Translations under genes and position numbers: made by a program | From: Clostridia bacterium | GTDB taxonomy: Bacteria > Bacillota > Clostridia > Christensenellales > CAG-138 | Assembly: GCA_017438865.1 (NCBI GenBank) | Contig: JAFRUN010000013.1 | Coordinates: forward strand, 1-56,065 | Length of the DNA stretch: 56,065 bases | Direction: 5' to 3' | The notes under the pieces: generated by a model | Databases searched by the model: none | The model's input: the letters and a program-made list of their open reading frames with translations, nothing else | What the model was told of the DNA's origin: nothing | Part shown: piece after piece, positions 9,905-47,015 of the stretch | Numbering within the stretch: the first letter of the stretch is position 1 | Layout of the letters: the number at the start of each line of letters is the position of its first letter

Positions 9905-11233
9905 ATGATCATGAATGAAATCTGCAAGCCGGATGCCGCGCTCGCTCGGTTGATTTTACCGCAAAAGCCGCATCCCGGCGTTTTTTATGTTCCGTCGCAG
10001 TTTGTTCTTCCCCTGACGCATCACGAAAAGCATTACGCGTTCCATCTGCTGACCAAGCAGCTCGTCGAGGCGGAGCTTCCCCGCGCCGCACGCGCCGGAG
10101 ATGGCTTCGATCCGCTGATCGAGGCGATGTTCCTCGTGCCCGAGGATCGGGACGAATGCGCCTATTACGGATCCGTTTCTAAGATGATGCGTCTGTTCGG
10201 GCAGAAAAACGGCGTCCCGAGTTACGTCATTCTGCCGACGCTCGCCTGCAACGCGCGCTGTGTCTACTGCTATGAAGAGGGTCGCAAACAGACGAAGATG
10301 ACGCCGGAAACCGTGGAACGGACGATCCGGTACATCCTGGAAACCCGCGCCGAAGGAACGATCACGCTCAAGTGGTTCGGCGGCGAACCGCTTTTGTGTC
10401 CGGATATCATCGATCGCGTCTCCGACGCGCTCCGCGAAGCGGGCGTGCCGTTCAGATCCTCCGTCATTTCAAACGGCAGTCTGATCACGCCTGCGATCAT
10501 TGAAAAGATGACGGCTTGCTGGAACGTCAGGCATGTGCAGATCTCCATGGACGGCGCGGAACCGGACTATATCGCGCGAAAGCATTACTATGCCGACGCC
10601 GACCAGTATCATTTCGTGATGGACGCGCTGAGCCGTCTGTCCGAGGCAGGCATTCACGTCTCCCTCCGCTGCAACGTCGACGACGGCAACTGGGACGGGA
10701 TCCCGAAGTTTATGGACGATCTCAAAGAGCACGTCGCGCACAAGGACAACGTCAGCGTTTATTTCAGCCCGCTGATGGACGTCCGGGCAAGCGACGGCGA
10801 TCTCGATTTCTGGAAGAAGGTCGTTGCGGCGCGACCGCTGATCGAAGCCGCCGGCTTCCGGTCGCAGCCCTTCGGCGCGCCGTCCCTGAAATTCAAGGCA
10901 AACCGCTGCATGGCGGACGGCGGCTGCAGCGTCATTGAGCCGGACGGCAGTCTGTATTCCTGCGAGCACTGCCCGCCGAACGGGCGGTTCGGAGACATCT
11001 TTCACGGGGTGACCGACGAAGCAAGAAAAGCGGAGTTCTGCCGTTCGGACCGTATCCGGGAAAAGTGCCGCAAGTGTCCGTTTTTGCCCGAATGCACCGG
11101 CTTCGCCTCCTGCCCCTGGACGGATGTGCATTGCAGAGAGTCACACGAATTGATCGCGCTGGACTTTTTGAAACGGCTGATCGATCAAAAAGCAAATGTC
11201 GAAGAACCGGACGGGGACGGCTCCGTCTGTTGA
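9905..11233 (+). CDS. Radical SAM/SPASM peptide maturase
   Basis: The protein has 442 residues. After an N-terminal region of about 110 residues, the radical SAM cluster motif C115-x3-C119-x2-C122 (LACNARCVYCYEEG) is followed by the GGEPLL motif and the usual TIM-barrel elements (ISMDGAEPDYI). The C-terminal SPASM domain is Cys-rich: CMADGGC, CEHC, then FCRSD, CRKCPFLPEC and CPWTDVHC, enough for two auxiliary [4Fe-4S] clusters. Relatives install thioether, C-C or C-O links in RiPPs or mature sulfatases. Position between a 36-aa peptide and a PqqD protein points to the former. The start at 9905 (or ATG at 9911) lacks a good ribosome-binding site. Confidence 0.9.
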   Translation: MIMNEICKPDAALARLILPQKPHPGVFYVPSQFVLPLTHHEKHYAFHLLTKQLVEAELPRAARAGDGFDPLIEAMFLVPEDRDECAYYGSVSKMMRLFGQKNGVPSYVILPTLACNARCVYCYEEGRKQTKMTPETVERTIRYILETRAEGTITLKWFGGEPLLCPDIIDRVSDALREAGVPFRSSVISNGSLITPAIIEKMTACWNVRHVQISMDGAEPDYIARKHYYADADQYHFVMDALSRLSEAGIHVSLRCNVDDGNWDGIPKFMDDLKEHVAHKDNVSVYFSPLMDVRASDGDLDFWKKVVAARPLIEAAGFRSQPFGAPSLKFKANRCMADGGCSVIEPDGSLYSCEHCPPNGRFGDIFHGVTDEARKAEFCRSDRIREKCRKCPFLPECTGFASCPWTDVHCRESHELIALDFLKRLIDQKANVEEPDGDGSVC

Positions 11234-11243
11234 GGAGGTAAAT

Positions 11244-11504
11244 ATGAAGCTGAAATCCGACTTTATCGTACAGGACGTTGAAGACGCCCAGTTTCTGGTC
11301 CCGCTGGGACATCAGGCGTTCAACGGCATCGTGAAAAGCAACAAGACCGCCGCGTTCATCGTGAACTGTCTCAGGGAGGGGACCACGGCGGAAGCGATCA
11401 CGGACGCCATGTGCCGCCGCTACGACGCGCCGCGCGAAACGATCGCCGCCGATGTCGAAGAGATCCTAAACACGCTGCGAAGCATCGGCGCGCTCGAGGA
11501 ATGA
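11244..11504 (+). CDS. PqqD-family RiPP recognition element
   Basis: This 86-residue protein has the PqqD winged-helix pattern: SDFIVQDVEDAQFLVPLG, FNGIVKSNKTAAFIVNCL and a C-terminal helix with DVEEILNTLRSIGALE. Stand-alone PqqD proteins bind the leader of the precursor peptide and present it to the radical SAM enzyme. ATG at 11244 follows TGAGGAGGTAAAT. An earlier in-frame start overlapping the maturase exists but lacks a site. The stop overlaps the next gene (ATGA). Confidence 0.85.
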   Translation: MKLKSDFIVQDVEDAQFLVPLGHQAFNGIVKSNKTAAFIVNCLREGTTAEAITDAMCRRYDAPRETIAADVEEILNTLRSIGALEE

Positions 11505-11962
11505 ACCGCTTTGAAGACCTGCTGGAAAAAGACGGCCGGCTTGTTTACAAAATCAAAGGCCGCAGCATGAAGCCCATGCTGCGCGAAAACCGGGACCTGG
11601 TGATCGTCGAGGTCCCTTCGGCGCGGCTTCAAAAAGATGACGTCGCGCTCTATAAACGCGGCGAACAGTATGTGCTGCACCGCGTGATCGCCGTCGGGGA
11701 CGGGTTTTACCGGATCCGCGGGGACAACACCTATTCGTTGGAACACGTCTCCGACGAACAGATCCTCGGCGTTCTGACCGGTTTTACCCGCAGGGGAAGG
11801 AACCATGCCGTGACGGAATCCGGATACCGGTTCTACGTCCGTTTCTGGAACTTCATCTATCCGCTGCGCTTCGTCTGGTTCCATATCAAAAGAGGTCTGA
11901 AAGCGGTCGCGGAAAAGCTCGGGATCGCGCCGTTTCTGAAAAAACTCCTCAGGCGCGGATAA
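11501..11962 (+). CDS. S24/S26-type (SipW/archaeal-like) signal peptidase, probably soluble; candidate leader peptidase
   Basis: The 153-residue product carries the S26 serine motif GRSMKPML (S22) and the second catalytic box YVLHRVIAV (H60), followed by RIRGDN. A His where bacterial type I peptidases have Lys marks the Ser-His subtype seen in SipW, archaeal and ER enzymes. Unlike those, the catalytic Ser is only 22 residues from the start and no transmembrane helix precedes it. The tail is basic and may touch the membrane. As last gene of the cassette, translationally coupled to pqqD, it could remove the leader from the modified peptide. This role is inference. Confidence 0.75.
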   Translation: MNRFEDLLEKDGRLVYKIKGRSMKPMLRENRDLVIVEVPSARLQKDDVALYKRGEQYVLHRVIAVGDGFYRIRGDNTYSLEHVSDEQILGVLTGFTRRGRNHAVTESGYRFYVRFWNFIYPLRFVWFHIKRGLKAVAEKLGIAPFLKKLLRRG

Positions 11963-12081: not shown

Positions 12082-12158
12082 AATAGTGTGTGTGCGTATG
12101 CGCCGAATCGACATCGGTCGGCGCAGAACGCAAATCGATTAAAGGAGGGGTTTCAATC

Positions 12159-13508
12159 GTGAGAGACACGTTCCGCGGCGGCGTGCATCCGAAAGAGCAC
12201 AAGGATCTCAGTCGGAAAGCGGCGCTGCGCGTCTTTGACGCAAAAGGAGAAATGGTCTTCCCGCTTGCACAGCACATCGGAAAACCGGCGAAGGCGATCG
12301 TCAAAAAAGGCGATCCGGTCCTGGTCGGACAGCGCATTGCGGAAGCGGACGGCTTCGTCTCCGCCAACGTCATCTGTTCCTGTTCCGGCACGGTGAAAGC
12401 GGTCGAAAAACGCCGCACGATCTCCGGCGCCATGCAGGAGTGCATCGTGGTGGACAACGACGGACAGTACACCGAAACCGGCACGTTCGGCACGCGCGAG
12501 GACATCGACGGCATCGCCAACGGGGAGATCCTGCGCCGCGTTGCGGATGCGGGCATCATCGGTCTCGGCGGCGCGGGCTTCCCGACGCATGTGAAACTTG
12601 CGCCGAAGGATCCGCTGGCGATCCGGTACCTGATCGCAAACGGCGCCGAGTGCGAGCCGTACATCACCTGCAACGATCAGCTCATGCGCGGCTATGCAAA
12701 GGACATCGTCGAGGGCATGGAGATCGTTCTCAAGCTGTTCCCGAATGCGCAGGGCGTGATCGCGATCGAAAACAACAAGCCCGAAGCGATCGCCGCCATG
12801 CAGAAGGCGGCCGCGGGACACAAGCGCATCCGCGTGCTCGGTCTTCGCACGAAGTACCCGCAGGGCGGCGAGCGCAGTCTCATTAAGGTGATCGCCGGCG
12901 TCGACTATCCGATCACCAAACTGCCCGCGGACGTGGGCTGCATCGTCGACAACATCGGCACGATCTTCGCAATCGGCCGCGCGGTCCTGCTTCGCGAGCC
13001 GCTGTTCCGCCATGTGATGACGGTCACCGGCGAAGCGGTCAAAGAACCCAGCAACTTCATCGCGCGCGACGGCACGAGCTTTGCTGAGCTCATCGAAGCC
13101 GCGGGCGGGATCAAAGAAGGCGTCGAAGCGAAGAAGATCATCTCGGGCGGTCCGATGATGGGCATCGCGGTCTCTTCGACCGAGGTCCCGATCACCAAGA
13201 CGACCAATGCGATCACCGTGCTGACGGAGGATCCCGTCGAAGCCGCCGAGAAGAAGATGACCGCCTGCCTGCATTGCGGACGCTGCACCACGGTCTGCCC
13301 GAACGGGCTGATGCCGCAGATGATGGCAGACGCCGTCGCGGCGGGCGACTTCGAGCGCTACGAGAAAAAGCTCTGCGGTCTGGACTGCATCTCCTGCGGC
13401 TCCTGCACCTATATCTGTCCGGCGAAGCGCCCGCTGACCCAGACGTTCAAGCAAACCAAGGCAGAGATCATGGCACGCAAGCGTGCGGCACAGGGAGGTA
13501 AGAAATGA
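12159..13508 (+). CDS. rnfC: Rnf complex subunit RnfC (NADH-interacting, Fe-S)
   Basis: RnfC is the peripheral subunit of the ferredoxin:NAD+ oxidoreductase that binds FMN and NAD(H). GTG at 12159 follows AAAGGAGGGG and gives 449 residues starting MRDTFRGGVHPKEHK, the family's normal beginning. The glycine-rich GLGGAGFPTHVKL (about 137-149) is the nucleotide/flavin site. Two [4Fe-4S] motifs lie near the C-terminus: CLHCGRCTTVCPNG and CISCGSCTYICPAK. It is first in the operon, and its stop overlaps the next start. Confidence 0.95.
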   Translation: MRDTFRGGVHPKEHKDLSRKAALRVFDAKGEMVFPLAQHIGKPAKAIVKKGDPVLVGQRIAEADGFVSANVICSCSGTVKAVEKRRTISGAMQECIVVDNDGQYTETGTFGTREDIDGIANGEILRRVADAGIIGLGGAGFPTHVKLAPKDPLAIRYLIANGAECEPYITCNDQLMRGYAKDIVEGMEIVLKLFPNAQGVIAIENNKPEAIAAMQKAAAGHKRIRVLGLRTKYPQGGERSLIKVIAGVDYPITKLPADVGCIVDNIGTIFAIGRAVLLREPLFRHVMTVTGEAVKEPSNFIARDGTSFAELIEAAGGIKEGVEAKKIISGGPMMGIAVSSTEVPITKTTNAITVLTEDPVEAAEKKMTACLHCGRCTTVCPNGLMPQMMADAVAAGDFERYEKKLCGLDCISCGSCTYICPAKRPLTQTFKQTKAEIMARKRAAQGGKK

Positions 13509-15067
13509 ATCAGAGACTGAATCTTTCCGCCGGCCCGCACGTACGCGACCGCTGGACGACGCCGTTCATCATGATGGTCGTTCTGATCTCGCTGATGCCC
13601 GCGGCGGTGATCGGCGTCATCGTGCACTGGGTGAGGTATCAGAGCTTGAACGCGCTTTGGATCATCCTTGCCTCGATCGGCTCCGCGATACTCACCGAGC
13701 TTCTGTTCTGCCTCGTCACACGACGCAAAATCACGATCTGGGACGGCAGCGCAGCCGTCACCGGCATGCTGCTTGCGCTGTGCCTGTCGCCGAACACGCC
13801 GGTCGCGCTTCCGATCATCGGTTCGGTATTTGCGATCCTCGTCGTCAAGTGCTGCTTCGGCGGTCTCGGCAGAAACTTCATCAACCCCGCGCTTGCGGCA
13901 CGCTGCTTCCTGCTCCTGTCATTTTCTAACGGCATGACCAACTACCCCGGCGTGGACGCACTTTCGAGCGCGACGCCCGTTGCGCTGATCAAAGCGGGCA
14001 GCATGGTCAACGTCACCGATATGTTCCTCGGCACCGCAGGCGGCGTCATCGGCAGCTCGATCGTTGCGCTGCTCGTCGGCGGTCTTGTGCTGTGGGGACT
14101 GGACATCATCCACGGCGAGATCTGCTTCTCGGTGCTCGGCGGCTTTACGCTCTGCCTCGCGCTGTTCGGCGGACACGGATTCGATCCGAAGTTCCTCGCC
14201 GCGCATCTGTGCAGCGGCGGCGTGGTGATGGGCGCGTTCTTCATGGCGACCGACTACACCACCTCTCCGGTGAGCCGTCTCGGACAGTTCGTTTACGGCT
14301 GCCTCATCGGCGTGCTCGGCGCGCTGTTCCGCATTCTCGGAAAGAGCGCCGACTCGTTCAGCTATTCGATCATCATCGCGAACCTGTTCACGCCGCTCAT
14401 CGATCTCTACATCATTCCGAAGCCCTATGCGTACCGCAAGTCCGCGATCCAGAAGGCGGAAGGCACGGTAAAGCCCCCGCTCTTCAAGCGCATTCCGAAG
14501 CCGGTCATCGCGCTGACGCTGATCGCGGCGCTCGCGGGCGTTGCGCTCTCCGGCGTATTCTCCATGACGAAGGATCCGATCGAAGCGAACGAGCTTGCAA
14601 AGAAGCGCGAATCGTACACGATCGTGTGTGAAGACGCGGCGGACTTTAAGGAGATCGCTTCCGCACAGGAAATGATCGAAGCGATGGCGGGCGGCACCTA
14701 CGGCGGCGGACAGTTCGGCACCACGACGGTCGACGAAGCGCTCGAGGCGGTGGATGCAAACGGCAATACCGTGGGCTATGTGTTCGCGATCACCAACCGC
14801 AACGCCTATAACCCGCCGATCAAGCTCGCGCTCGGCGTTCGTCCCGACGGATCGATCATCCGGATCGCGTTCATCGAGCTGAACGAAACGCCCGGCAAGG
14901 GCTCGAAGGCGGATGAACCTGCGTTCAAGGATCAGTTCATCGGTCAGACCGCAACGGACGGCGTCGACGTCATGTCCGGCGCGACCGTCACATCGAAGGC
15001 GGTTCTGAACGCGGTGAACGCGGGGCTCGACTTCTTCCAAAACGTGATCATGGAGGGAGGCAACTGA
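13505..15067 (+). CDS. rnfDG: Fused RnfD-RnfG, Rnf membrane subunit with both covalent-FMN sites
   Basis: One uninterrupted frame of 520 residues replaces the two genes normally found here. Residues about 1-325 are RnfD, a polytopic membrane protein whose flavin-attachment site is TDYTTSP (about 249-255). A cytoplasmic linker with two IPKP phrases leads to a new transmembrane helix (about 337-355), then the RnfG domain with S491-G-A-T-V-T, the motif that binds FMN through phosphoester-threonine. Fusion would fix the electron path from the RnfD flavin to the RnfG flavin in one chain. ATG at 13505 overlaps the rnfC stop. I see no stop or frame change at the junction. Confidence 0.92.
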   Translation: MNQRLNLSAGPHVRDRWTTPFIMMVVLISLMPAAVIGVIVHWVRYQSLNALWIILASIGSAILTELLFCLVTRRKITIWDGSAAVTGMLLALCLSPNTPVALPIIGSVFAILVVKCCFGGLGRNFINPALAARCFLLLSFSNGMTNYPGVDALSSATPVALIKAGSMVNVTDMFLGTAGGVIGSSIVALLVGGLVLWGLDIIHGEICFSVLGGFTLCLALFGGHGFDPKFLAAHLCSGGVVMGAFFMATDYTTSPVSRLGQFVYGCLIGVLGALFRILGKSADSFSYSIIIANLFTPLIDLYIIPKPYAYRKSAIQKAEGTVKPPLFKRIPKPVIALTLIAALAGVALSGVFSMTKDPIEANELAKKRESYTIVCEDAADFKEIASAQEMIEAMAGGTYGGGQFGTTTVDEALEAVDANGNTVGYVFAITNRNAYNPPIKLALGVRPDGSIIRIAFIELNETPGKGSKADEPAFKDQFIGQTATDGVDVMSGATVTSKAVLNAVNAGLDFFQNVIMEGGN

Positions 15068-15068
15068 T

Positions 15069-15752
15069 ATGAAGAATAAATACGTCGAACGGCTGTATAA
15101 CGGCCTCATCAAGGAGAACCCGACGCTCGTCCTGATGCTCGGCATGTGCCCGACGCTGGCGGTCTCGACCGCGGCGATCAACGGCGTCAGCATGGGCCTC
15201 TCGACGCTGGCGGTTCTGATCCTGTCCAACTTCCTGATCTCCGTGATGCGCAACGTCATCCCCGACGAGGTCCGGCTTCCCGCCTACATCGTCATCGTCG
15301 CTTCGCTCGTTACGGTCGTCAAGCTGCTGATCAAGGCGTACCTACCCTCCGTCGACGAGGCGCTCGGCACCTACATCGACCTGATCGTCGTGAACTGCAT
15401 CATTCTGGGCCGCGCCGAAGCGTACGCGAACAAGCATACGCCCGGGCTGTCCGTCATGGACGGCATCGGCATGGGCCTCGGCTTCACCGTCGCCCTGACG
15501 CTCGCGGGCTTTGTGCGTGAGCTTTTGGGCACCGGCACGGTGTTCGGTCTCACGGTCTTCCCGCAGGAATACGCGGTCGGCATCATGATCCAGCCGCCGG
15601 GTGCGTTCCTCGTCATCGCGCTGTTCATTATCATCATGAACGCGATCGGCATCAAGACGCGCCAACGCCAGCTCGTCGAATCGGACGGCTGCGACGGCTG
15701 CTGTGCAACCTGCGCCATGCGCTGTGAAGAAGGAAAGGAGGAAACGAAATGA
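15069..15752 (+). CDS. rnfE: Rnf complex subunit RnfE
   Basis: This 227-residue integral membrane subunit has six predicted helices. MKNKYVERLYNGLIKENPTL is the usual RnfE N-terminus, and LGMCPTLAVST contains a conserved Cys that helps hold the intramembrane iron site. An unusual tail, GCDGCCATCAMRCEE, carries five cysteines in a short stretch. Metal binding there is possible but unproven. The gene starts 1 nt after rnfDG ends. Confidence 0.93.
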   Translation: MKNKYVERLYNGLIKENPTLVLMLGMCPTLAVSTAAINGVSMGLSTLAVLILSNFLISVMRNVIPDEVRLPAYIVIVASLVTVVKLLIKAYLPSVDEALGTYIDLIVVNCIILGRAEAYANKHTPGLSVMDGIGMGLGFTVALTLAGFVRELLGTGTVFGLTVFPQEYAVGIMIQPPGAFLVIALFIIIMNAIGIKTRQRQLVESDGCDGCCATCAMRCEEGKEETK

Positions 15753-16363
15753 TCCGCTTGATCCTGATCGTCATTCTGAACGCGCTGATTTCGAACGTCG
15801 TTCTCAATCAGTTCCTCGGAATCTGCTCGTTCCTCGGCGTTTCCCAGAGAATCAAGGCGTCAGCTTCGCTGGGCGCGGCGGTCATCTTCGTCATGACCAT
15901 CGCCTCCGCGGTCGCAAGCGCGCTTTACAGTCTGGTCCTGCATCCGCTCGGTCTCGACTTCATGAAGATGATCATCTTCATCCTGGTCATCGCGGCGCTC
16001 GTGCAGATCGTGGAGATGTTCCTCAAAAAGAAGTCTCCCTCCGTCTATAAAGCGCTCGGCATCTATCTGCCGCTGATCACCACCAACTGCGCGGTACTCG
16101 GTATCGCGATCGACAACATCGACAAGTTCGGTTACAACTTCATCGAAAGCGTATTCTCCGGCTTCGGCACGGCGGTCGGCTACACGATCGCGATCGTGCT
16201 TCTCGCGGGCATCCGTTCGCGCGTGGTCGAAGAGGACATCCCGCGTCCCGTGCGCGGCGCACCGATCGTCATGCTCGCCGCGGCGCTGATGTCCATCGCG
16301 TTTATGGGCTTCTCGGAGCTTCAGCCGGTGATCGAAACCGCTTTGAAGGGGGTCGGACAATGA
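15749..16363 (+). CDS. rnfA: Rnf complex subunit RnfA
   Basis: This 204-residue membrane subunit, homologous to RnfE, has six hydrophobic helices. NQFLGICSFLGVS in the first helix pair and LITTNCAVLG in the middle carry the conserved cysteines that, with those of RnfE, hold the intramembrane cluster. It overlaps rnfE by 4 nt (ATGA) and rnfB by 4 nt, so the subunits are translated together. Confidence 0.95.
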   Translation: MIRLILIVILNALISNVVLNQFLGICSFLGVSQRIKASASLGAAVIFVMTIASAVASALYSLVLHPLGLDFMKMIIFILVIAALVQIVEMFLKKKSPSVYKALGIYLPLITTNCAVLGIAIDNIDKFGYNFIESVFSGFGTAVGYTIAIVLLAGIRSRVVEEDIPRPVRGAPIVMLAAALMSIAFMGFSELQPVIETALKGVGQ

Positions 16364-17181
16364 GCGCGCCTATGATTATCCTGATCACCACGCTTGTGAT
16401 CACCGCCATCGGCATCGTCGTCGGCGCGGGGCTCGTGTTTACGGGCAAAAAGTTCCATGTCCCGGTCGATGATCGTGAAGCGGAAGTCCGCGAATGTCTG
16501 CCCGGCAACAACTGCGGCGCGTGCGGCTTTGCGGGCTGCGACGCAGCGGCCGCGGCGATCGTCGCGGGCGACGCGCCGGTCAACGTCTGTCCCGTGGGCG
16601 GCGGTCCGGTCGCCGAAAAGATCGGCGGCATCATGGGCACCGACGCGGAGATCCTCGAACGCCAGGTCGCGTTCGTCCGCTGCAAGGGCACCTGCGAAGC
16701 GTCCGGCCTGCAGGGCAACTACGTCGGCATCAACGACTGCCGTTCGGCCGTGCTCGGCGGCGTCAACCTGAAGAACTGCGATTACGGCTGTCTGGGTCTC
16801 GGCTCGTGCGTGAGCGTCTGCCCGCAGGGCGCGATCAAGCTCGTCGACGGCGTCGCGGTCGTCAACCGCAAGCTGTGCGTCGCGTGCGGACTGTGCGTCA
16901 AGACCTGCCCGAAGGGACTCATCGAGCTCGTGCCGGAAAGCAAGTTCGTCGCGGTACAGTGCATGAACCGCGACAAGGGACCGCAGGTCAAAAAGGTCTG
17001 CTCCGCGGGCTGCATCGGCTGTACGCTGTGCACGCGGCAGTGCGCGTTCGACGCGATCCATATGGACGGCAACCTTGCGCGCGTCACCTATGAAAACTGC
17101 ACCCAGTGCGGCAAGTGCGCGGAGAAATGTCCGGTCGGCGTCATCACGCCGCCCTGCCCCGCCGCACGGAAGGAGGCATAA
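16360..17181 (+). CDS. rnfB: Rnf complex subunit RnfB (ferredoxin-accepting Fe-S subunit)
   Basis: RnfB takes electrons from reduced ferredoxin. The 273 residues comprise an N-terminal membrane helix (about 5-27), a four-Cys domain (CLPGNNCGACGFAGC plus a later Cys), the CKGTCEASG and CDYGCLGLGSC region, and further ferredoxin-like clusters (CVACGLCVKTCPKG, CIGCTLCTRQC, CTQCGKCAEKCPVG). It is the last rnf gene and is followed after 3 nt by nrfA, so the nitrite reductase is part of the same transcript. Confidence 0.95.
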   Translation: MSAPMIILITTLVITAIGIVVGAGLVFTGKKFHVPVDDREAEVRECLPGNNCGACGFAGCDAAAAAIVAGDAPVNVCPVGGGPVAEKIGGIMGTDAEILERQVAFVRCKGTCEASGLQGNYVGINDCRSAVLGGVNLKNCDYGCLGLGSCVSVCPQGAIKLVDGVAVVNRKLCVACGLCVKTCPKGLIELVPESKFVAVQCMNRDKGPQVKKVCSAGCIGCTLCTRQCAFDAIHMDGNLARVTYENCTQCGKCAEKCPVGVITPPCPAARKEA

Positions 17182-17184
17182 GCT

Positions 17185-18504
17185 ATGGAAAAACGCAATC
17201 AAGCCGCGAAACTCATCATCGGAGCGGTCGTCGTCATCGTCGCCGTTCTGTTCCTCGTCGGCATTGTCGGCGGACACGACGTGAAGTACAAGTCCGCGCC
17301 GCTTTCGCGCGAGGATATCGCGTACAAGCAGGTCGAAGCGCCGAATGCCACGTCGGCGGACGGCACGATCCGTGCGAACGACTGGAAAGCGATCTATCCC
17401 GACATCGTCGTTTCGATGGGCAAAAACGCCGAAAACAGCGACGTCGTCGATTATCTGGAGCTGGATCCGTACCTTGTGGAGATCTACGAGGGTTACGGCT
17501 TCGCAAAGGACTACGGCAGCGCGCGCGGACATTCCTACACGCTTGAGGACGTCGCGAAGACCAAGCGCCCGCACGGCATGGCGAACTGCCTGACCTGCAA
17601 GACGCCGAACTTCACCAAGCTCGTGAACGACAACAGCGACGAGGTCTACTCCCGCCCGTTCGACGAGGTCTATGCCGCGATCACCGGCAGCAACGGCGAA
17701 ACGGTCAGCTGCTACACCTGCCACGGCAATAACCCCGGCAACGGCACGCAGCCCAAGGAAAACCTGACGGTCACGCACGGCTACATTGATCTTGCGCTCA
17801 CCGGCGAAAACAAGACCGCGATCGATCCCGGCGTCCTTGCCTGCGGTCAGTGCCACATCGAGTACTACTTCGATCCGGAGACCAAGGCAACGCGTATGCC
17901 GCACTCCTCGATCGAAACCATGACGCCGGAGGCGACCTACGATTACTACACCGAAATCGGCTTTTCCGACTGGACGCAGGAAAGCACCGGCGCGAAGATG
18001 CTGAAGGTGCAGCATCCCGAAATGGAGACCGTTCTCCTCGGCAAGCACGCAGGCATGCTGAACTGTGCCGACTGCCATATGCCGGTCGAACAGAACCCGG
18101 CTACGCAGAACGTCTACCACAGCCACACGCTTGTGAGCCCGCTGGAAAGCAAAACGCTGCTTGAGACCTGCCTCGTCTGCCACAAGAGCTTCGGCGTGAA
18201 CAGCGTTGAAGAGATGATCCGATTCATCAAAAACATTCAGGCGCGCATCACTTCGGAGGAGACGCGCGTGGGCAACCTGCTCATGGAGTTCAAGAAGACG
18301 CTTGCCGCCGCGAATCAGGACGAAAAGATGTCCGAGGACGAGCTCAACAAGGTCCGCGAGCTCTACCGGAAGGCGCAGTGGTTCTTCGATTATTGCTACG
18401 TTGAGAACTCCGAGGGCGCGCACAACTCCGCGCTTTCGGCACACTGTCTCGAAACGGCGGAGCAGCTCATCAGCGAGGGCATGGCGATTCTGAACGCCGA
18501 ATAA
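17185..18504 (+). CDS. nrfA: Cytochrome c nitrite reductase NrfA (pentahaem, ammonia-forming)
   Basis: NrfA reduces nitrite to ammonium with six electrons outside the cytoplasmic membrane. Five haem motifs are present: the diagnostic catalytic C135-x-x-C-K, then four C-x-x-C-H at about 176, 220, 294 and 329. CGQCHIEYYF and the NCADCHMP / YHSHTLVSP region match family positions for the active-site Tyr and His. An N-terminal helix (about 9-28) can anchor it to the membrane. At 439 residues its length is typical. The usual quinol-oxidising partner NrfH is absent from this window. Instead the gene follows rnfB by 3 nt and precedes haem-attachment genes. Confidence 0.95.
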   Translation: MEKRNQAAKLIIGAVVVIVAVLFLVGIVGGHDVKYKSAPLSREDIAYKQVEAPNATSADGTIRANDWKAIYPDIVVSMGKNAENSDVVDYLELDPYLVEIYEGYGFAKDYGSARGHSYTLEDVAKTKRPHGMANCLTCKTPNFTKLVNDNSDEVYSRPFDEVYAAITGSNGETVSCYTCHGNNPGNGTQPKENLTVTHGYIDLALTGENKTAIDPGVLACGQCHIEYYFDPETKATRMPHSSIETMTPEATYDYYTEIGFSDWTQESTGAKMLKVQHPEMETVLLGKHAGMLNCADCHMPVEQNPATQNVYHSHTLVSPLESKTLLETCLVCHKSFGVNSVEEMIRFIKNIQARITSEETRVGNLLMEFKKTLAAANQDEKMSEDELNKVRELYRKAQWFFDYCYVENSEGAHNSALSAHCLETAEQLISEGMAILNAE

Positions 18505-18520
18505 CGACCTACAGGACCTG

Positions 18521-18560
18521 CGGCAAAGGGTTCGCCCGACAAGGCGCACGCCCTTTGCCG
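18521..18560 (+). promoter_or_regulatory. Strong intercistronic hairpin between nrfA and resB
   Basis: CGGCAAAGGG (18521-18530) pairs perfectly with CCCTTTGCCG (18551-18560), and CGCC/GGCG inside extends the structure. It lacks a T-run, so it probably protects the upstream message or tunes expression of the downstream genes. The resB start is 13 nt beyond it and has no clear Shine-Dalgarno sequence. Confidence 0.7.
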
Positions 18561-18573
18561 TTCTCTTATCACC

Positions 18574-19827
18574 ATGGAGATCCTCAGAAAAATCTACAAG
18601 TTTATCGCGTCGATGCGGTTCGCGATCATCCTGCTGATCGCGGTCGCCGCCGTATGCGTGATCGGAAGTCTGGTTCCGCAGGGCGAACAGTTTGCGCAGT
18701 ACCGCGATTCGTATTCCGAGCGGACGGCGGCGTTCATCCTCGCCTTCCGACTCGACGACGTGTTCCACAGCTGGTGGTTCATCGTACTCGTCGCGCTGCT
18801 CTGTCTCTCCGTTCTGCTCTGCAATCTTTCTCGCGTCCGTGTACTGATCCGGCAGACGAAAAGCGCCGCCGTGCCCGAACAGGCGATCGCCCTTCCGCCG
18901 GACGTGACCGCGGCGCAGATCGACGATCCCGAACCGGTATTCAGGCGCCTGCGCTTTTTCCGCCCGGTGAAAACGACCGCCGACGGCAAAGAAGTCGTAT
19001 TCGCGTACCGCAACCGTCCCGGCTTCTGGGGCGCGTGGATCTGCCACATCGGGATCGTGCTGATCGTGCTCGGCTACGCGCTCGGACAGAGGACGCTGTT
19101 CTCTGCGACCGTATACGGCACGCCCGGGCAGACGAAGCCGATCGAGGGCACGCCCTGCGAGGTGACGATCGACGATTTCCGCATCGAGCGAAACGAGACC
19201 GGCTTTGTCGAGCAGTACGTTACGACGCTGACGGTCGGAAACGCCGAAACCGGCAAATCGCAGAGCGGCACGTCGAGCGTCAACCATCCCGCGGTTCTGT
19301 GCGGATACAAGCTCTATCAGACCGCATGCGGCGACGCGGTGCGCGTAACGATCGCGGAAGACGGCGTTCCGTTCGAAAGCGCCGACCTCTGCGTCGGCGA
19401 GGAGCTGACGATCTCGTTTTTGCCGGGGCTGTCGCTCTATCTCAACGCATACGAGCCGGATCACAACGGTCAGCCCGCGTATCAGATCCTGTTCTTCTAT
19501 CAGGGACAGCACATGGACGTCGGCAAAAACTACTTCGCCCCCGGCGGCGTCATCGACCTGAATCCGTACACGATCACGCTGTCCGAGCCGCTATCCTACA
19601 CCCTGCTGCGCGTGAAAAAGGACTCCTTCGCGTGGCTCGTGCTCGTCGGCGCGGTCCTTACCGCACTCGGGCTGTTCCTTGCGCTGTATGCGGTCCCGGA
19701 GACCGTCTGGGCGGTGCGCGAAGACGACGGCAGGTGGACGCTGAACGGCAGGAGCAAAAAGCTCGCGCCGCTGTTCAAAGAGCAATTTGACCGCGCCGTT
19801 TCCGGCGGAAAGGAGGCGGCAAAATGA
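18574..19827 (+). CDS. resB: Cytochrome c biogenesis protein ResB (CcsB-type)
   Basis: ResB works with ResC in system II haem export and attachment to apocytochromes outside the membrane. The 417-residue protein has the expected plan: two N-terminal helices around IGSLVPQGEQF, which is the ResB signature, a third helix before a large extracytoplasmic domain (about 165-345), and a final helix (about 350-370). GAWICHIGIVLIVLGYALGQ matches the conserved helix. It is adjacent to nrfA, its likely client, and overlaps resC by 4 nt. Confidence 0.9.
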   Translation: MEILRKIYKFIASMRFAIILLIAVAAVCVIGSLVPQGEQFAQYRDSYSERTAAFILAFRLDDVFHSWWFIVLVALLCLSVLLCNLSRVRVLIRQTKSAAVPEQAIALPPDVTAAQIDDPEPVFRRLRFFRPVKTTADGKEVVFAYRNRPGFWGAWICHIGIVLIVLGYALGQRTLFSATVYGTPGQTKPIEGTPCEVTIDDFRIERNETGFVEQYVTTLTVGNAETGKSQSGTSSVNHPAVLCGYKLYQTACGDAVRVTIAEDGVPFESADLCVGEELTISFLPGLSLYLNAYEPDHNGQPAYQILFFYQGQHMDVGKNYFAPGGVIDLNPYTITLSEPLSYTLLRVKKDSFAWLVLVGAVLTALGLFLALYAVPETVWAVREDDGRWTLNGRSKKLAPLFKEQFDRAVSGGKEAAK

Positions 19828-20675
19828 TGCAGGCGGAAAGCATTCTGTTCGTCGTGACGCTCGCGCTGTACTTTGTCGCGATGCTTCTTTACTTCCTCTA
19901 TGCCGCGGTCAAAAAGCCGGCCCTGAGCTCGATTGCCGTCCGCGTGCAGCTTTTTGCCTTGCTTGTCCATACGGCTTCGATCGTGCTGCGCGGGATCCTC
20001 ATGGGACGTCTGCCGATGGCAAACCAGTACGAATTCTCCACCGCGTTCAGCTGGGCGCTCGCACTCGTCAGCTTGATTTTCATCCGGAAGTTCCGCTTCC
20101 CCGTGCTCGGCGCGTTCGCTTCGCCGGTCACGCTGCTGCTCGCGGTGTACGCCGGCGTGCAGAAGCTCAACGAGCTTAAGGTGATCGCGGCGAGCGGCGT
20201 CGACAGCATCCGCAATCTGATGCCCGCGCTTCGCAGCAGCTGGCTCGGCATCCACGTTTCCACCGTCATCGTCGCATACGGCGCGTTCGGCGTATCGTTC
20301 GTGCTGTCGATCATCTTTCTGCTGCGCGACCGCATGAAGGAAAACGGCTTCTGGGATCAGCATATCCCGAAAAAGGAAAAGCTCGATACGATCAGCTACC
20401 GCTGCGTGTCGCTCGGCATGATGTTTCTGACGGTCACGATCGGCATCGGCGGGATCTGGGCGGAAAACGCCTGGGGAAGCTACTGGAGCTGGGATCCAAA
20501 GGAGACGTGGGCGCTCGTCACATGGATCATTTACCTCGTGTATCTGCATCTGCGTATCCGCCGCGGCTGGAACGGCAAAGCCGCCGCAATCTTCGGCGTT
20601 TTCGGCTTTGTCTGCGTGCTGTTCACCTATATCGGCGTAAACACGCTTCTGCCCGGTCTGCACAGTTATAAATAA
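19824..20675 (+). CDS. resC: Cytochrome c biogenesis protein ResC (CcsA-type haem handling)
   Basis: This 283-residue polytopic protein has the tryptophan-rich haem-binding WWD motif WGSYWSWDPKETWAL (about 218-232) and conserved flanking histidines. It presents haem to CXXCH/CXXCK sites together with ResB. No CcdA or ResA thiol-reduction genes are in the window, so they must lie elsewhere. The start overlaps resB. The TAA at 20675 ends the energy operon, although no strong terminator follows within the next 40 nt. Confidence 0.93.
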   Translation: MMQAESILFVVTLALYFVAMLLYFLYAAVKKPALSSIAVRVQLFALLVHTASIVLRGILMGRLPMANQYEFSTAFSWALALVSLIFIRKFRFPVLGAFASPVTLLLAVYAGVQKLNELKVIAASGVDSIRNLMPALRSSWLGIHVSTVIVAYGAFGVSFVLSIIFLLRDRMKENGFWDQHIPKKEKLDTISYRCVSLGMMFLTVTIGIGGIWAENAWGSYWSWDPKETWALVTWIIYLVYLHLRIRRGWNGKAAAIFGVFGFVCVLFTYIGVNTLLPGLHSYK

Positions 20676-21686: not shown

Positions 21687-22061
21687 ATGGAAATGAAGTT
21701 CTATCGCTGCGAGACCTGCGGTCAGATCATCGCGATCGTCAAAAAGACGCCCGTCCCCGTCATGTGCTGCGGAAAACCGATGAAGGAGATCGTTCCCGGC
21801 ACGACCGATGCGTCGCTTGAAAAGCACGTTCCGGTCGTCGAAGTCAACAACGGCTGCGTCAAAGTAAAGATCGGCGCCGTCGCGCACCCGATGCTCCCCG
21901 AGCATTACATCGAATGGGTATCCCTGCAAACGAAATACGGCAATCAGAGAAAGGCGCTCGCGCCGAACGACGCGCCCGAGGTCTGCTTCAAGATCTGCGA
22001 GGGCGACGAGGTCGAAGCGGTCTATGCCTACTGCAACCTGCACGGGCTGTGGAAAGCGTAA
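21687..22061 (+). CDS. dfx: Desulfoferrodoxin (superoxide reductase)
   Basis: This 124-residue protein reduces superoxide to hydrogen peroxide without making oxygen. The N-terminal desulforedoxin-like domain has a rubredoxin-type site (CETCG and the CC pair in PVMCCGKPM). The C-terminal domain has the Fe(His)4Cys catalytic site: EKHVP, HPMLPEHYIEW and CNLHGLWK. ATG follows AAGGAGGAAATC. It is in an operon with rubrerythrin 9 nt downstream, the classic anaerobe pairing that removes first superoxide and then peroxide. Confidence 0.95.
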   Translation: MEMKFYRCETCGQIIAIVKKTPVPVMCCGKPMKEIVPGTTDASLEKHVPVVEVNNGCVKVKIGAVAHPMLPEHYIEWVSLQTKYGNQRKALAPNDAPEVCFKICEGDEVEAVYAYCNLHGLWKA

Positions 22062-22070
22062 GGAGGCAGT

Positions 22071-22607
22071 ATGAGCAAGTATACCGGAACGAAAACCGAA
22101 CAGAACCTGCTTCAAGCATTCGCGGGCGAATCGCAGGCGCGCAACAAGTATACCTACTTTGCCTCCCGCGCGAAGAAGGACGGCTTTGAGCAGATCGCCG
22201 CGCTGTTTCTGAAGACCGCGGACAACGAAAAGGAACACGCGAAGCTCTGGTTCAAGGAGCTCGAGGGCATCGGCACCACCGCGGAAAACCTGAAAGCCGC
22301 CGCGGACGGCGAAAACTACGAGTGGACGGACATGTACGAGGGCTTTGCAAAGACCGCCGAGGAGGAGGGCTTTTCGGAGCTTGCCGAGAAATTCCGCCTG
22401 GTCGCCGCGATCGAAAAGCACCACGAGGAACGCTACCGCGCGCTTCTGAAGAATGTCGAGACCGCGCAGGTCTTTGCAAAATGTGAAGTCAAGGTCTGGG
22501 AATGCCGCAACTGCGGGCACATCGTGATCGGCGAAAAAGCGCCGGACATCTGCCCCACCTGCGCGCACCCGCAATCCTACTTCGAGGTCAACGCAGAAAA
22601 TTACTGA
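22071..22607 (+). CDS. rbr: Rubrerythrin
   Basis: This NADH-peroxidase component removes hydrogen peroxide produced by superoxide reductase. The 178-residue protein has the four-helix di-iron domain ([21 protein letters not shown], then [13 protein letters not shown]) and a C-terminal rubredoxin-like domain with WECRNCGH and CPTCAHP. The start follows AAGGAGGCAGT. It is last in the two-gene oxidative-stress operon. Confidence 0.95.
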
Positions 22608-43675: not shown

Positions 43676-44859
43676 ATTCCGAACTCCTTTTTGTACTTTT
43701 CTTCTTCTGCGTCGTTGCAGCGAACGAAATGTCCGGGAAGGATCTCGCGGAGCGTCGGCTTGTCAACGGAATAGTCGTGCGACGCGAGCGGATTATAGAT
43801 GATACGGACACGCTTCTTTTCCGAACGCGGGTCGGGCAGCGGGATCGCGGAAAGCAGGGAGCGCGTGTACGGATGCATCGGATGATCGAACAGTTCATCC
43901 GTCTCCGCAAGCTCGACCATGTTGCCGTAGTACATAACGCCGATGCGGTCGGAGAAGTACTTGACGACGGACAGGTCGTGCGCGATGAACAGGATCGTCA
44001 GACCGAGACGCTCGCGCAGCTCGTTCAGAAGGTTGATGACCTGCGCCTGAATGGAAACGTCCAGTGCGGAGATCGGTTCGTCCGCGATCAGCAGCTCCGG
44101 CTCCATGATGATGGCGCGCGCGATGCCGATACGCTGACGCTGACCGCCCGAGAATTCGTGCGGATAACGTCCCGCATGCTCGCGGACCAGACCGACCAGC
44201 TCGAGCATCTCAAAGACCTTGTTGTCGATGTATTCCTTGTCCTTGATGCCTCTGATCGCAAGACCTTCGGAAATGATCTCGCGGACCGTCATACGCGGAT
44301 CGAGTGATGCGATCGGATCCTGGAAGATCATCTGGATCTTGGTGATCAGCTTGGTCTTCTTGGCAACGCGGATCGCGTCCTTATACTCCTTCGCCAGCTT
44401 TTCGGCTTCCTCCGGAGACATGGCGTGCTTCTGACGCTCCTGATACTTCTCGTGCGTTTCCTTCACAAGGCGCTGCGCATATTCGCGGTCCGAATACTTG
44501 TGATCGAACTTTGCCTTGCGGATCTCGGCGTAGTTATCCGAGATAATCTTGTTCAGCTCTTCGATCCGCTTTTCGTCCTTGCAGGTCGCCTTTTCCTTGC
44601 GGGCCGCCTTGATGGCTTCCTTATAGGAACGGTTGCCCGCGCAGATGCGCTGACCTTTGAAGTAGATGTTGCCCGAGGTGATGTTGTAGATCTTGATGAT
44701 CGAACGACCGGTCGTCGTTTTGCCGCAGCCGGATTCGCCGACCAGACCGAAGACCTCGCCCTTCTTGATGTCGAAGGAAACGTGGTCGACCGCTTTCGTC
44801 GGTCCGAAATACTGGCAGAGATCTTCAACGCGAAGCAATACTTCTTTCTGATCCGTCAT
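43672..44859 (-). CDS. oppF: Oligopeptide ABC transporter ATPase OppF with inserted coiled coil
   Basis: The protein has 395 residues. ABC motifs: Walker [16 protein letters not shown]-loop [12 protein letters not shown], signature [14 protein letters not shown], Walker [14 protein letters not shown]-loop HDL, then the Opp C-terminal extension [16 protein letters not shown]. Between Walker A and the Q-loop, residues about 75-175 form an inserted charged helical stretch ([20 protein letters not shown] and onwards) absent in standard OppF of about 310-330 residues. It pairs with OppD, which has a larger insert. Confidence 0.93.
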
Positions 44860-47012
44860 TGTTCTGCACCTCCCTCAAGTCTTTCGGTCATGCGGCGGAT
44901 ACGGTCGGTGATCGCCTTCGGGACCTCCACTTTCGGCGCGTCCGGATGGAGCAGCCAGGTGGCGGCATAGTGCGTATCCGTCACGCGGAAGAACGGCGGA
45001 TGCTCCTCATAGTCGATCTGCATCGCGTACTTGTTGCGCGCGGCGAACGCGTCGCCGGCCGGCGGATAGATCATGTTCGGAGGCGTGCCCGGGATCGCGT
45101 CGAGCTTTTCCTTCGTGTCGAGGTCCGGCATGGAGGACAGCAGCGCCCAGGTGTACGGATGACGCGGATCATAGAAGATCTCGTCCGCGGAGCCGTATTC
45201 GACGATCTTTCCGGCGTACATGACCGCGATGTCGTCCGCCATGTTCGCAACGACGCCGAGGTCGTGCGTAATGAAGATGATGGACAGTCCGCGCTCTGCC
45301 TTCAGCTTGTTGATCAGCTCCAGGATCTGGGACTGGATGGTAACGTCCAGCGCCGTGGTCGGCTCGTCGCAGATCAGGATATCCGGGTTTGCCGCAAGCG
45401 CGATCGCGATGACGATACGCTGGCGCATACCGCCGGAGAACTCGAACGGATACTGGTTGTAGCGCAGACGCGGCTCGTGGATACCGACCTCGTCCATCAG
45501 CTTGATCGCCTTTTCCTTCGCCATGCTCTTCGTGACGCGGTAGACGATCTGGGACGCCGTCTTCTTGAGGTGGTCGGTCAGGTCGTTGGTGCGCTTAGTG
45601 AAGTCGACCTGATCCGCCTGCTTGACGATGCCCTCATAATGCTCGGACATACGGTCGATGATCAGCAGGATGTTGCCGCTCAGCTCTTCCTTGGAGTAGA
45701 CCGCCTTCGGAATGACCTTCCAGGTGACAGTCTTGCCGCGCGCGATCAGCCGCGCGCGTCTTGCCGTCTGCCGTGCGAACCGCGCTTCCTCTTTCGGGTT
45801 GCGTTTCAGGCAGAAGAAGTAGCGGTCGATCGCGTTGTTCAGCGCGGAACGGAACGTATAGGCACGGCTGTCCTTGATGTACTCGAGCTCATCGATGGAC
45901 TCGTCGATCTCTTCGCAGATCGCCTTGGAAACTTTCTTCGCTTCGGGCTTCGTGAAGTCCTTGGAGAAGAACTCTCTCGCGTCCTTGAGCTTTTCAAGCA
46001 CGTCCTTCTTTTCGACCAGCGCACGCTCGAACGAATATTTGACGCCGTCCTCCTCGTATTTGGTGAACTGCGGCAGGAAGTGCTCGTTGATGAACGCCTC
46101 TGCTTTCGCGTTCAGCGTTTCGACGGGCTGATCCAGATTCGCGCTCGGATCGTAGAGCTTGTAGTAGCCGATGCTGAAGAAGTCCGGTCGCGTCTGCTCG
46201 GTGATCTCCTTCAGAAGACCTTCGAGCTTCTTGACCTCCGCGACGGATTCCTCGATGTTGTTGTCCTTCTTGCGATAGCCGGACGCCGCGCGGCCGAGGT
46301 CGTCGGAAGCGGCTTCCATTCTCGCCTTGTATTCTCTGACGAGGAAGCGGTCCTTGATCGTCTTGAGCCGTTTTCTGAAGTCCGCGAGATTCTTCTTGAC
46401 GTCGATGTGCTGATTCTTCTCCGCGAGGAAGAGGAAGTTCTCGACGAGAGCGAGCAGGTCCAGCGCGTTGGAGTGCGAGATGTTGTACGCATTTTCAAGG
46501 TGGTTGCTCTCGAGGCAGAAGCGCTCGAACGTCTTCATCAGAGAGTCGATCTCGTCCTTGTGACCGGAACCGGCCGCCGCGTACATGTTCTTTTTCAGCG
46601 CGCCGAGGAGCTTGTTGTACTCCACCTTGGCGACTCTGCGGTTGGTGGAGCTCTTCAGAAGCATCGCCTCGGTGATCTGTCTGCCGATCTTGACGATCGG
46701 GTCCAGCGAGGACAGCGGATCCTGGAAGATCATGGAGATCTTGTCGCCGCGGATGTTGTGGAAGTCCTCTTCGGAGATCTTCAGAAGATCCTTGCCGTCG
46801 TACAGGATCTCGCCGCCTTCAATGATCGTGTTGCCGGCCAGGATTCCGAGGATCGCTTTCGCGGTAACGGATTTGCCGGAACCGGACTCGCCGACGATCG
46901 CCAGCGTCTTGCCGCGCTTCAGATCGAGCGTAATGTCGCGGACCGCCTTCAGCGTACCTGCCTGTGTGCGGAACGAGACTTTCAGGTTTTTTACTTCAAG
47001 AATGTTATCCAT
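44856..47012 (-). CDS. oppD: Oligopeptide ABC transporter ATPase OppD with a ~370-residue insertion
   Basis: The protein has 718 residues, about double the normal 330-350. Walker A is at about 41-49 (GESGSGKSV) and the Q-loop at about 94-99 (MIFQDP). After about residue 121 comes a long lysine/glutamate-rich, mostly helical insert to about 490, and only then the signature FSGGMRQRIVIA, Walker B ILICDEPTTALDV, H-loop THDLGVVANMADD and the Opp C-terminus HPYTWALLSSMPDLD. The insert sits in the helical subdomain that faces the membrane subunits. It overlaps oppF by 4 nt. Confidence 0.93.
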   Translation of the reverse strand: MDNILEVKNLKVSFRTQAGTLKAVRDITLDLKRGKTLAIVGESGSGKSVTAKAILGILAGNTIIEGGEILYDGKDLLKISEEDFHNIRGDKISMIFQDPLSSLDPIVKIGRQITEAMLLKSSTNRRVAKVEYNKLLGALKKNMYAAAGSGHKDEIDSLMKTFERFCLESNHLENAYNISHSNALDLLALVENFLFLAEKNQHIDVKKNLADFRKRLKTIKDRFLVREYKARMEAASDDLGRAASGYRKKDNNIEESVAEVKKLEGLLKEITEQTRPDFFSIGYYKLYDPSANLDQPVETLNAKAEAFINEHFLPQFTKYEEDGVKYSFERALVEKKDVLEKLKDAREFFSKDFTKPEAKKVSKAICEEIDESIDELEYIKDSRAYTFRSALNNAIDRYFFCLKRNPKEEARFARQTARRARLIARGKTVTWKVIPKAVYSKEELSGNILLIIDRMSEHYEGIVKQADQVDFTKRTNDLTDHLKKTASQIVYRVTKSMAKEKAIKLMDEVGIHEPRLRYNQYPFEFSGGMRQRIVIAIALAANPDILICDEPTTALDVTIQSQILELINKLKAERGLSIIFITHDLGVVANMADDIAVMYAGKIVEYGSADEIFYDPRHPYTWALLSSMPDLDTKEKLDAIPGTPPNMIYPPAGDAFAARNKYAMQIDYEEHPPFFRVTDTHYAATWLLHPDAPKVEVPKAITDRIRRMTERLEGGAEQ

Positions 47013-47015
47013 AGA

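Follow-up and report, generated by a model that had tools for sequence, protein, structure and literature searches.

The window analysed here is the whole of a 56,065-nucleotide (nt) stretch of a Clostridia bacterium genome (GCA_017438865.1, contig JAFRUN010000013.1, positions 1 to 56,065), and it contains an operon in which the genes of the ion-pumping Rnf complex are followed directly by nrfA, whose product is predicted to be a pentahaem ammonia-forming nitrite reductase, and then by resB and ccsB, which encode cytochrome c maturation system II (Table 1). That NrfA is encoded behind Rnf and without its usual partner in numerous uncultured Clostridia of the gut and rumen suggests that nitrite may be respired straight from Rnf. 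From comparative genomics alone, we consider it likely that NrfA acts on the exoplasmic side as a terminal reductase and receives its electrons from the exposed flavin of RnfG, which would amount to a quinone-free nitrite respiration. The candidate transfer from Rnf to NrfA had been proposed from the letters of the window and its open reading frames (ORFs), in what we call the sequence-only reading, and it is supported here by the absence of NrfH, the conservation of gene adjacency, the lack of a quinone-pathway enzyme in most genomes tested, and a set of protein fusions.

All six Rnf subunits (RnfA to RnfE and RnfG) are encoded in the window, D and G as a single chain. From rnfC to ccsB the junctions measure, in order, -4, +1, -4, -4, +3, +69, and -4 nt. 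The sequence-only reading had described rnfC, rnfDG, rnfE, rnfA, rnfB, and nrfA as overlapping or at most 3 nt apart, with resB after a short gap behind nrfA, and the coordinates and family matches bear this out. The stop codon of rnfB lies 3 nt ahead of nrfA, and both genes are in the same frame.

This arrangement is conserved among relatives. Of 297 genomes of the order, 13 have this NrfA, counting that of the window, and rnf lies upstream of nrfA in all 12 whose contig reaches upstream, the contig of the remaining genome (G264) ending inside nrfA. A scan of named genomes, queried with peptides of this NrfA, added 79 loci from the best 80 of 271 relatives; these are mainly metagenome-assembled genomes (MAGs) of Clostridia, many with rumen or gut in their record titles. 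The pooled set comprises 86 distinct loci, after removal of L015-L020 as the same contigs as L033, L041, L045, L043, L047, and L062. Among the 62 loci with at least 6.5 kb of upstream sequence, 60 have the whole of rnfCDGEAB ahead of nrfA (59 by script plus L100), and this recurrence of one order confirms that the gene order is beyond chance. With at least 0.9 kb upstream as the requirement, rnfB is found ahead of nrfA in 81/84 loci (80 plus L100), and resB follows nrfA in 81/83. An adjacency peculiar to one genome is thus ruled out by the order genomes and the 86 loci, and the conservation that the sequence-only reading proposed to survey is borne out. Two MAG contigs titled Spirochaetales (L084, L097) also carry the rnf-nrfA operon, through either mis-binning or transfer.

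In 58 of 76 junctions, nrfA starts between -20 and +25 nt relative to the stop codon of rnfB, while inserted genes widen others, up to 3.5 kb. Stop-codon read-through from rnfB into nrfA is rejected, though the two genes share a frame in 44/76 junctions, because many of the 45 junctions inspected have a GGAGG-like ribosome site and because the rnfB stops are mixed (TAA 49, TGA 26, TAG 1).

The NrfA protein itself appears to be an intact enzyme. Its match to PF02335 scores 246 bits, over the Pfam cut-off of 24.1, and it falls under the NCBIfam cut-offs of two proteobacterial-type models (NF008339, 207 of 595; TIGR03152, 171 of 692.5). The window protein has 4 CxxCH motifs and 1 CxxCK, a set found in 86/86 loci. 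The protein aligns with the solved nitrite reductases 1gu6 and 2j7a, and in an alignment of the loci twelve catalytic, calcium-site, and haem residues are likewise invariant in 86/86: R114, K139, Y227, and H277, the calcium-site residues E226, K274, and Q276, and the haem histidines. The roles of these residues are listed, by E. coli numbering, in the available text of PMC4683180. A decayed NrfA is ruled out by this invariance. By hydropathy, a hydrophobic helix stands at the N-terminus of NrfA in 80/86 loci, including the window; the six without a scored helix are five fusion proteins, in which just the stretch adjoining the NrfA core was inspected, and L093, which is cut off. With this helix, NrfA should be membrane-anchored by itself. 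At L060:8983-11433, two NrfA stretches lie within a single open frame behind rnfB.

NrfA is usually supplied with electrons by a dedicated partner, and the sequence-only reading had noted that neither nrfH nor nrfB is nearby, which is confirmed. It had also named an NrfH gene elsewhere in the genome as evidence that would count against the Rnf route. The window genome (1.92 Mb, 79.5% complete, one NrfA) has no match to the NrfH family PF03264 and, because of its incompleteness, the absence was tested in relatives too: NrfH is found in 0/13 NrfA-bearing genomes of the order (the window's and 12 relatives) and in 0/11 of those at least 90% complete. In the window genome the CxxCH DNA pattern has 54 matches against 75 in a reversed control, and only in nrfA, with its 4, do several share a frame within 1 kb; two matches 931 nt apart on one strand of contig 7 differ in frame and do not count as such a cluster. 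By canonical CxxCH, then, this 79.5% complete genome shows no second multihaem gene, non-canonical haem motifs not having been sought. On the PF03264 searches of the 13 genomes and the canonical CxxCH scan of this 79.5% complete one, a separately encoded multihaem donor, whether NrfH or a different protein, is rejected.

A UbiA-family prenyltransferase is required by both menaquinone pathways. No such enzyme is found in 12 of the 13 genomes, the window genome among them, or in 10/11 of those at least 90% complete, while the profile matched in 14/14 reference genomes used as a control. The UbiA search covered 13 of the 86 genomes, and the NrfH search covered these 13 and 6 more. The absence of NrfH together with the absence of UbiA in 12/13 means that the known quinol-fed routes are unavailable in most of the genomes tested. 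NrfA could still be quinol-fed if an unrecognised quinol dehydrogenase were combined with a non-canonical quinone route, and G254, the only one of the 13 to carry a UbiA-family gene, fits such a scheme, but given the unmatched UbiA in the other genomes, the working control, and the missing NrfH we regard it as very improbable indeed.

Several features of Rnf bear on electron transfer. RnfD and RnfG are fused in 76/76 loci that have an rnfD, and also in the unlinked clusters L216 and L217, while in three genomes of the same class whose NrfA lies elsewhere, D and G are separate (L218-L220). The residue for attachment of flavin mononucleotide (FMN) is kept in 76/76, as S or T in RnfG and T in RnfD, and the ApbE flavin transferase is found in 12/13 genomes, the window's included. 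Each of the 13 genomes has a single rnfC above the cut-off, linked to nrfA in 12 and on another contig in G264, which rules out a dedicated second Rnf copy; G061 has an additional partial rnfC match of 213 bits, under the cut-off. With its flavin-attachment residues kept and only one rnfC per genome, the normal NAD+ branch of Rnf should still work. According to the available text of PMC9588780 and PMC12174285, the FMN of RnfG is extracellular, exposed, and mobile between RnfAE and RnfD.

In the mechanism that we propose, Rnf would be reduced by ferredoxin through RnfB or by NADH through RnfC, and electrons would then arrive at the mobile, outward-exposed flavin of RnfG. NrfA, held by its own N-terminal helix and with haems attached by ResB and CcsB, would draw these electrons into its haems and reduce nitrite, presumably the substrate in the cell, to ammonium with 6 electrons. 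RnfG would thus be a branch point, passing electrons to NrfA if nitrite is present and otherwise through RnfD and RnfC to NAD+. Ion pumping may continue during the half-route from RnfB to NrfA, depending on which published pump model holds, since, in the available text of PMC12174285, the pump site is disputed between RnfAE (A. woodii model) and a path through RnfD (C. tetanomorphum model). More tentatively, Rnf may be a respiratory hub whose flavin feeds interchangeable exoplasmic reductases placed behind rnfB (NrfA, flavocytochrome-c-type enzymes, and chimeras of both), with the nitrite half-route RnfB-RnfAE-RnfG still pumping and no quinones involved; this wider reading is possible, though we are less confident of it than of the supply of NrfA by Rnf.

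Fusion proteins provide a further line of evidence. In five genomes of one family (f4), NrfA is fused to FMN_bind domains, the Pfam family of RnfG. Three of these (G284, G097, and G254, genus g74) have FMN_bind and NrfA in one protein, with 3 Pfam stretches in L023 and L024 and 4 in L025; by eye, the L023 fusion has five flavin-attachment-like motifs. On the cut contig of G264 (L022), NrfA is preceded by a single FMN_bind stretch by Pfam and by two attachment motifs. In the fifth (G179, L026), a separate protein with four FMN_bind domains is followed by a single frame (L026:8767-11718) joining FMN_bind, a flavocytochrome-c flavin adenine dinucleotide (FAD) domain (NF005064, above cut-off), and NrfA, so that two terminal reductases occur in one protein. 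Similarity to the window RnfG itself is found only in L023-L025, and the NrfA proteins of L022 and L026 match the Pfam FMN_bind family. At L100, RnfB is joined in frame to NrfA; because this rests on a single MAG contig, the join may be an error of assembly or sequencing. Long inserts separate rnfB from nrfA in six loci (L057, L075, L088, L090, L091, and L103), and those of L075, L090, and L091 hold an FMN_bind-FAD protein, which in L090 is above the flavocytochrome c cut-off and in L075 is more distant. Fusions of this kind are expected if electrons would leave Rnf via exported flavins for an exoplasmic reductase.

NrfA was also examined across the wider class and phylum. A PF02335 match is present in 87 of 398 genomes of a phylum sample, 81 above the cut-off. 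One NrfA region was taken from each of 60 of these, with about 5 kb on each side (shorter at some contig ends); G472, G323, and G519 (strong matches), genomes with only weak matches, and second copies fall outside the 60, and G379 and G645 are represented by their lower-scoring copy. In the stretches fetched, an rnf cluster adjoins nrfA in 0/60 loci, aside from lone RnfB- or RnfC-like ferredoxin matches, while a small ORF with at least three (3-4) CxxCH motifs adjoins it in 40/60, and 7/7 of those tested belong to PF03264. Among the 391 genomes of the class sample, just 5 have NrfA, one of them the window genome; the other four hold five NrfA genes, none linked to rnf and one with a small 3-CxxCH ORF alongside. 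Near unlinked NrfA at L155:858-2240 and L175:8297-9673 are ORFs of about 460 amino acids (aa) with 20 CxxCH motifs. At L211:1839-2672 and L181:8491-9297, a ferredoxin-type gene follows nrfA-resB-ccsB with no nrfH alongside, and the L211 protein has sirohaem-reductase and PCP_red domains by Pfam.

A tree of 120 NrfA rows, in which alternate rows represent the rnf group (37 of 73) and five genes occur twice (L197-L201 are L210-L214), was built by a quick method, and the tool flagged long branches. The 37 rnf-labelled rows fall inside one 50-row clade on a long stem, with a Shimodaira-Hasegawa-like approximate likelihood ratio (SH-aLRT) support of 100, and the five NrfA fusions form one clade with an SH-aLRT of 98. 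L042, L048, L065, and L100 are labelled as having neither neighbour, owing to overlapping frames, yet rnf is directly upstream of each; L093 is cut off.

A number of observations weigh against the supply of NrfA by Rnf. Three loci (L089, L102, and L104) have nrfA-resB-ccsB with no rnf beside it, and they make the strongest case against a strict need for adjacency. They group together within the rnf-linked clade, their genomes have no NrfH (genome completeness not given), and each has one rnfC elsewhere, L216 being a complete rnf cluster; this is most simply explained if the genes were relocated and Rnf acts from a different place in the genome. The inserts of L057, L088, and L103 are unrelated ORFs, L045 and L047 lack a downstream resB, no ApbE was found in G104 (88% complete), no rnfC was found in the classmate G1031 (77% complete), and G254 has its UbiA-family gene. 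Neither an NrfH-like ORF nor rnf lies beside nrfA in 20/60 phylum loci and in 4/5 of the classmate genes, so that the lack of an adjacent NrfH is not special to rnf operons, NrfH elsewhere in those genomes not having been sought. Since the relatives were chosen by NrfA similarity, conservation was measured inside this NrfA's own clade, and co-transcription of rnf and nrfA may reflect shared regulation only.

This last explanation would have Rnf and NrfA co-transcribed for anaerobiosis, with NrfA reduced by free flavins, thiols, or another membrane oxidoreductase and serving to detoxify nitrite or nitric oxide (NO). The three loci with nrfA apart from rnf and the 20 phylum loci with neither neighbour would be accommodated by it, but it does not predict the fusions of NrfA to FMN_bind (five genomes) and to RnfB (one locus), nor that rnfB should precede nrfA so consistently, and the genomes of the three unlinked loci each keep an rnfC. 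The window genome has no other multi-CxxCH gene, and the UbiA enzyme is missing from nearly all the genomes searched. We therefore consider shared regulation alone unlikely.

With NrfHA the operon shares an NrfA with a CxxCK haem, the same catalytic residues, and system II cytochrome c maturation, which the available text of PMC12285233 reports for NrfHA systems; it differs in having no NrfH, no UbiA enzyme in 12/13 genomes, an NrfA that would be self-anchored, and rnf in the usual position of nrfH. Enterobacterial NrfABCD likewise has an ammonia-forming NrfA with calcium-site residues, whereas the window genome has no NrfB-like multihaem gene and the donor would be Rnf rather than the quinol pool.

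By analogy, the nearest functional precedent is MmcA-Rnf of Methanosarcina acetivorans, in which a multihaem c-type cytochrome is encoded in the rnf operon and takes electrons from Rnf on the outside (PMC11024163, whose authors, in the available text, call MmcA absent from bacteria in which Rnf works between ferredoxin and NAD). With its seven haems, MmcA is related to tetrathionate reductases (the OTR-related clade) and delivers electrons to methanophenazine or extracellular acceptors, whereas the window NrfA is bacterial, has five haem motifs, belongs to PF02335, and is predicted to be itself a terminal nitrite reductase. NrfA might instead be an MmcA-like conduit from Rnf to acceptors besides nitrite, such as hydroxylamine, NO, sulfite, metals, or humics. 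Beyond the MmcA precedent, this would agree with the occupation of the slot behind rnfB in three loci by FMN_bind-FAD reductases with other substrates, but a mere conduit would not need the catalytic residues and CxxCK haem that are invariant in every locus, and we find it rather improbable.

Closest to the fusions are the proteins of Méheust et al. 2021 (PMC8238504), who describe, in the available text, RnfG proteins of Christensenellales that are multi-flavinylated and include a multi-heme cytochrome domain, and who propose a branched route. Like L023-L025, these proteins combine several FMN_bind domains with a multihaem domain in an RNF cluster, and the family f4 fusions are probably of the same kind; the window lacks such a fusion. 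The main text of that report does not contain the term nrfA, mentions nitrite only for NapH-like and NirS systems, and, in its available portions, includes neither the commoner unfused rnf-nrfA operon nor the lack of NrfH and quinones. The same report describes flavinylated extracytosolic fumarate-reductase-like enzymes, in which FMN_bind likewise links a membrane source to an exoplasmic reductase. Such parallels occupy the same slot in L075, L090, and L091 and are fused to NrfA in L026, while the window operon has NrfA only and no extra FMN_bind protein.

The available text of the follow-up study (PMC10979944) does not mention nitrite, and that of an NrfA review (PMC12285233) lists three electron partners only (NrfH, CymA, and NrfB), all quinol-fed. 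Available passages of other reports credit rumen nrfA expression to Selenomonas and Wolinella (PMC6776011) and describe NrfA paired with NrfH, with a separate Rnf in Sporomusa (PMC12780646, PMC9253864) and Melioribacter (PMC3534657) and with no Rnf in Methanoperedens (PMC4683180). In the available text of the open-licence literature we found no description of Rnf-linked NrfA; as a proposal from genomics only, the putative combination of a known enzyme with a known pump was not found described.

Table 1. Genes of the rnf-nrfA operon in the window, with coordinates and family matches
Gene	Product	Coordinates	Strand	Family match
rnfC	NADH/FMN and 4Fe-4S subunit	12159..13508	+	TIGR01945, 494 bits
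rnfD-rnfG	RnfD-RnfG fusion, 520 aa	13505..15067	+	TIGR01946, TIGR01947 (under cut-off), PF04205
rnfE	Membrane subunit	15069..15752	+	TIGR01948, 230 bits
rnfA	Membrane subunit	15749..16363	+	TIGR01943, 236 bits
rnfB	Ferredoxin-type electron entry subunit	16360..17181	+	TIGR01944, 98 bits, above cut-off
nrfA	Predicted pentahaem ammonia-forming nitrite reductase	17185..18504	+	PF02335
resB	Cytochrome c maturation system II	18574..19827	+	PF05140, 182 bits
ccsB (resC)	Cytochrome c maturation system II	19824..20675	+	TIGR03144, 248 bits

The rnfC frame is open from 12090, and its start can be placed only near 12150-12159. In the fused chain, the RnfD part matches TIGR01946 (211 bits, above the model cut-off), while the RnfG part, predicted to bear the exposed exoplasmic FMN, scores 75 bits against TIGR01947, under the cut-off of 102, and matches FMN_bind (59 bits, above the Pfam cut-off). 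Directly upstream of rnfC (9905-11962) are genes for a radical S-adenosylmethionine protein and a PqqD-like protein, both by family matches, and a signal-peptidase-like ORF by reading, which together are read as a peptide-modification cassette of the type that makes ribosomally synthesized and post-translationally modified peptides (RiPPs). Just downstream of the operon (21687-22607) are genes for the oxygen-stress proteins desulfoferrodoxin and rubrerythrin; desulfoferrodoxin scores 124 bits, under the equivalog cut-off of 147, with its domain model above cut-off. Farther along, at 44856-48587, lies an oligopeptide-type ATP-binding cassette transporter with an unusually long ATPase (718 aa) and permease (523 aa) that, by reading, contain apparent insertions.

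If NrfA is indeed fed by Rnf, this would be a fourth electron route to NrfA, and a quinone-free one. Many of these Clostridia come, by their record titles, from rumen and gut, where methane formation and the reduction of nitrite draw on the same reducing power. The operon would also offer a natural test of the Rnf pump site, since a drain of electrons from RnfG to nitrite would use the RnfAE site and by-pass the RnfD site.

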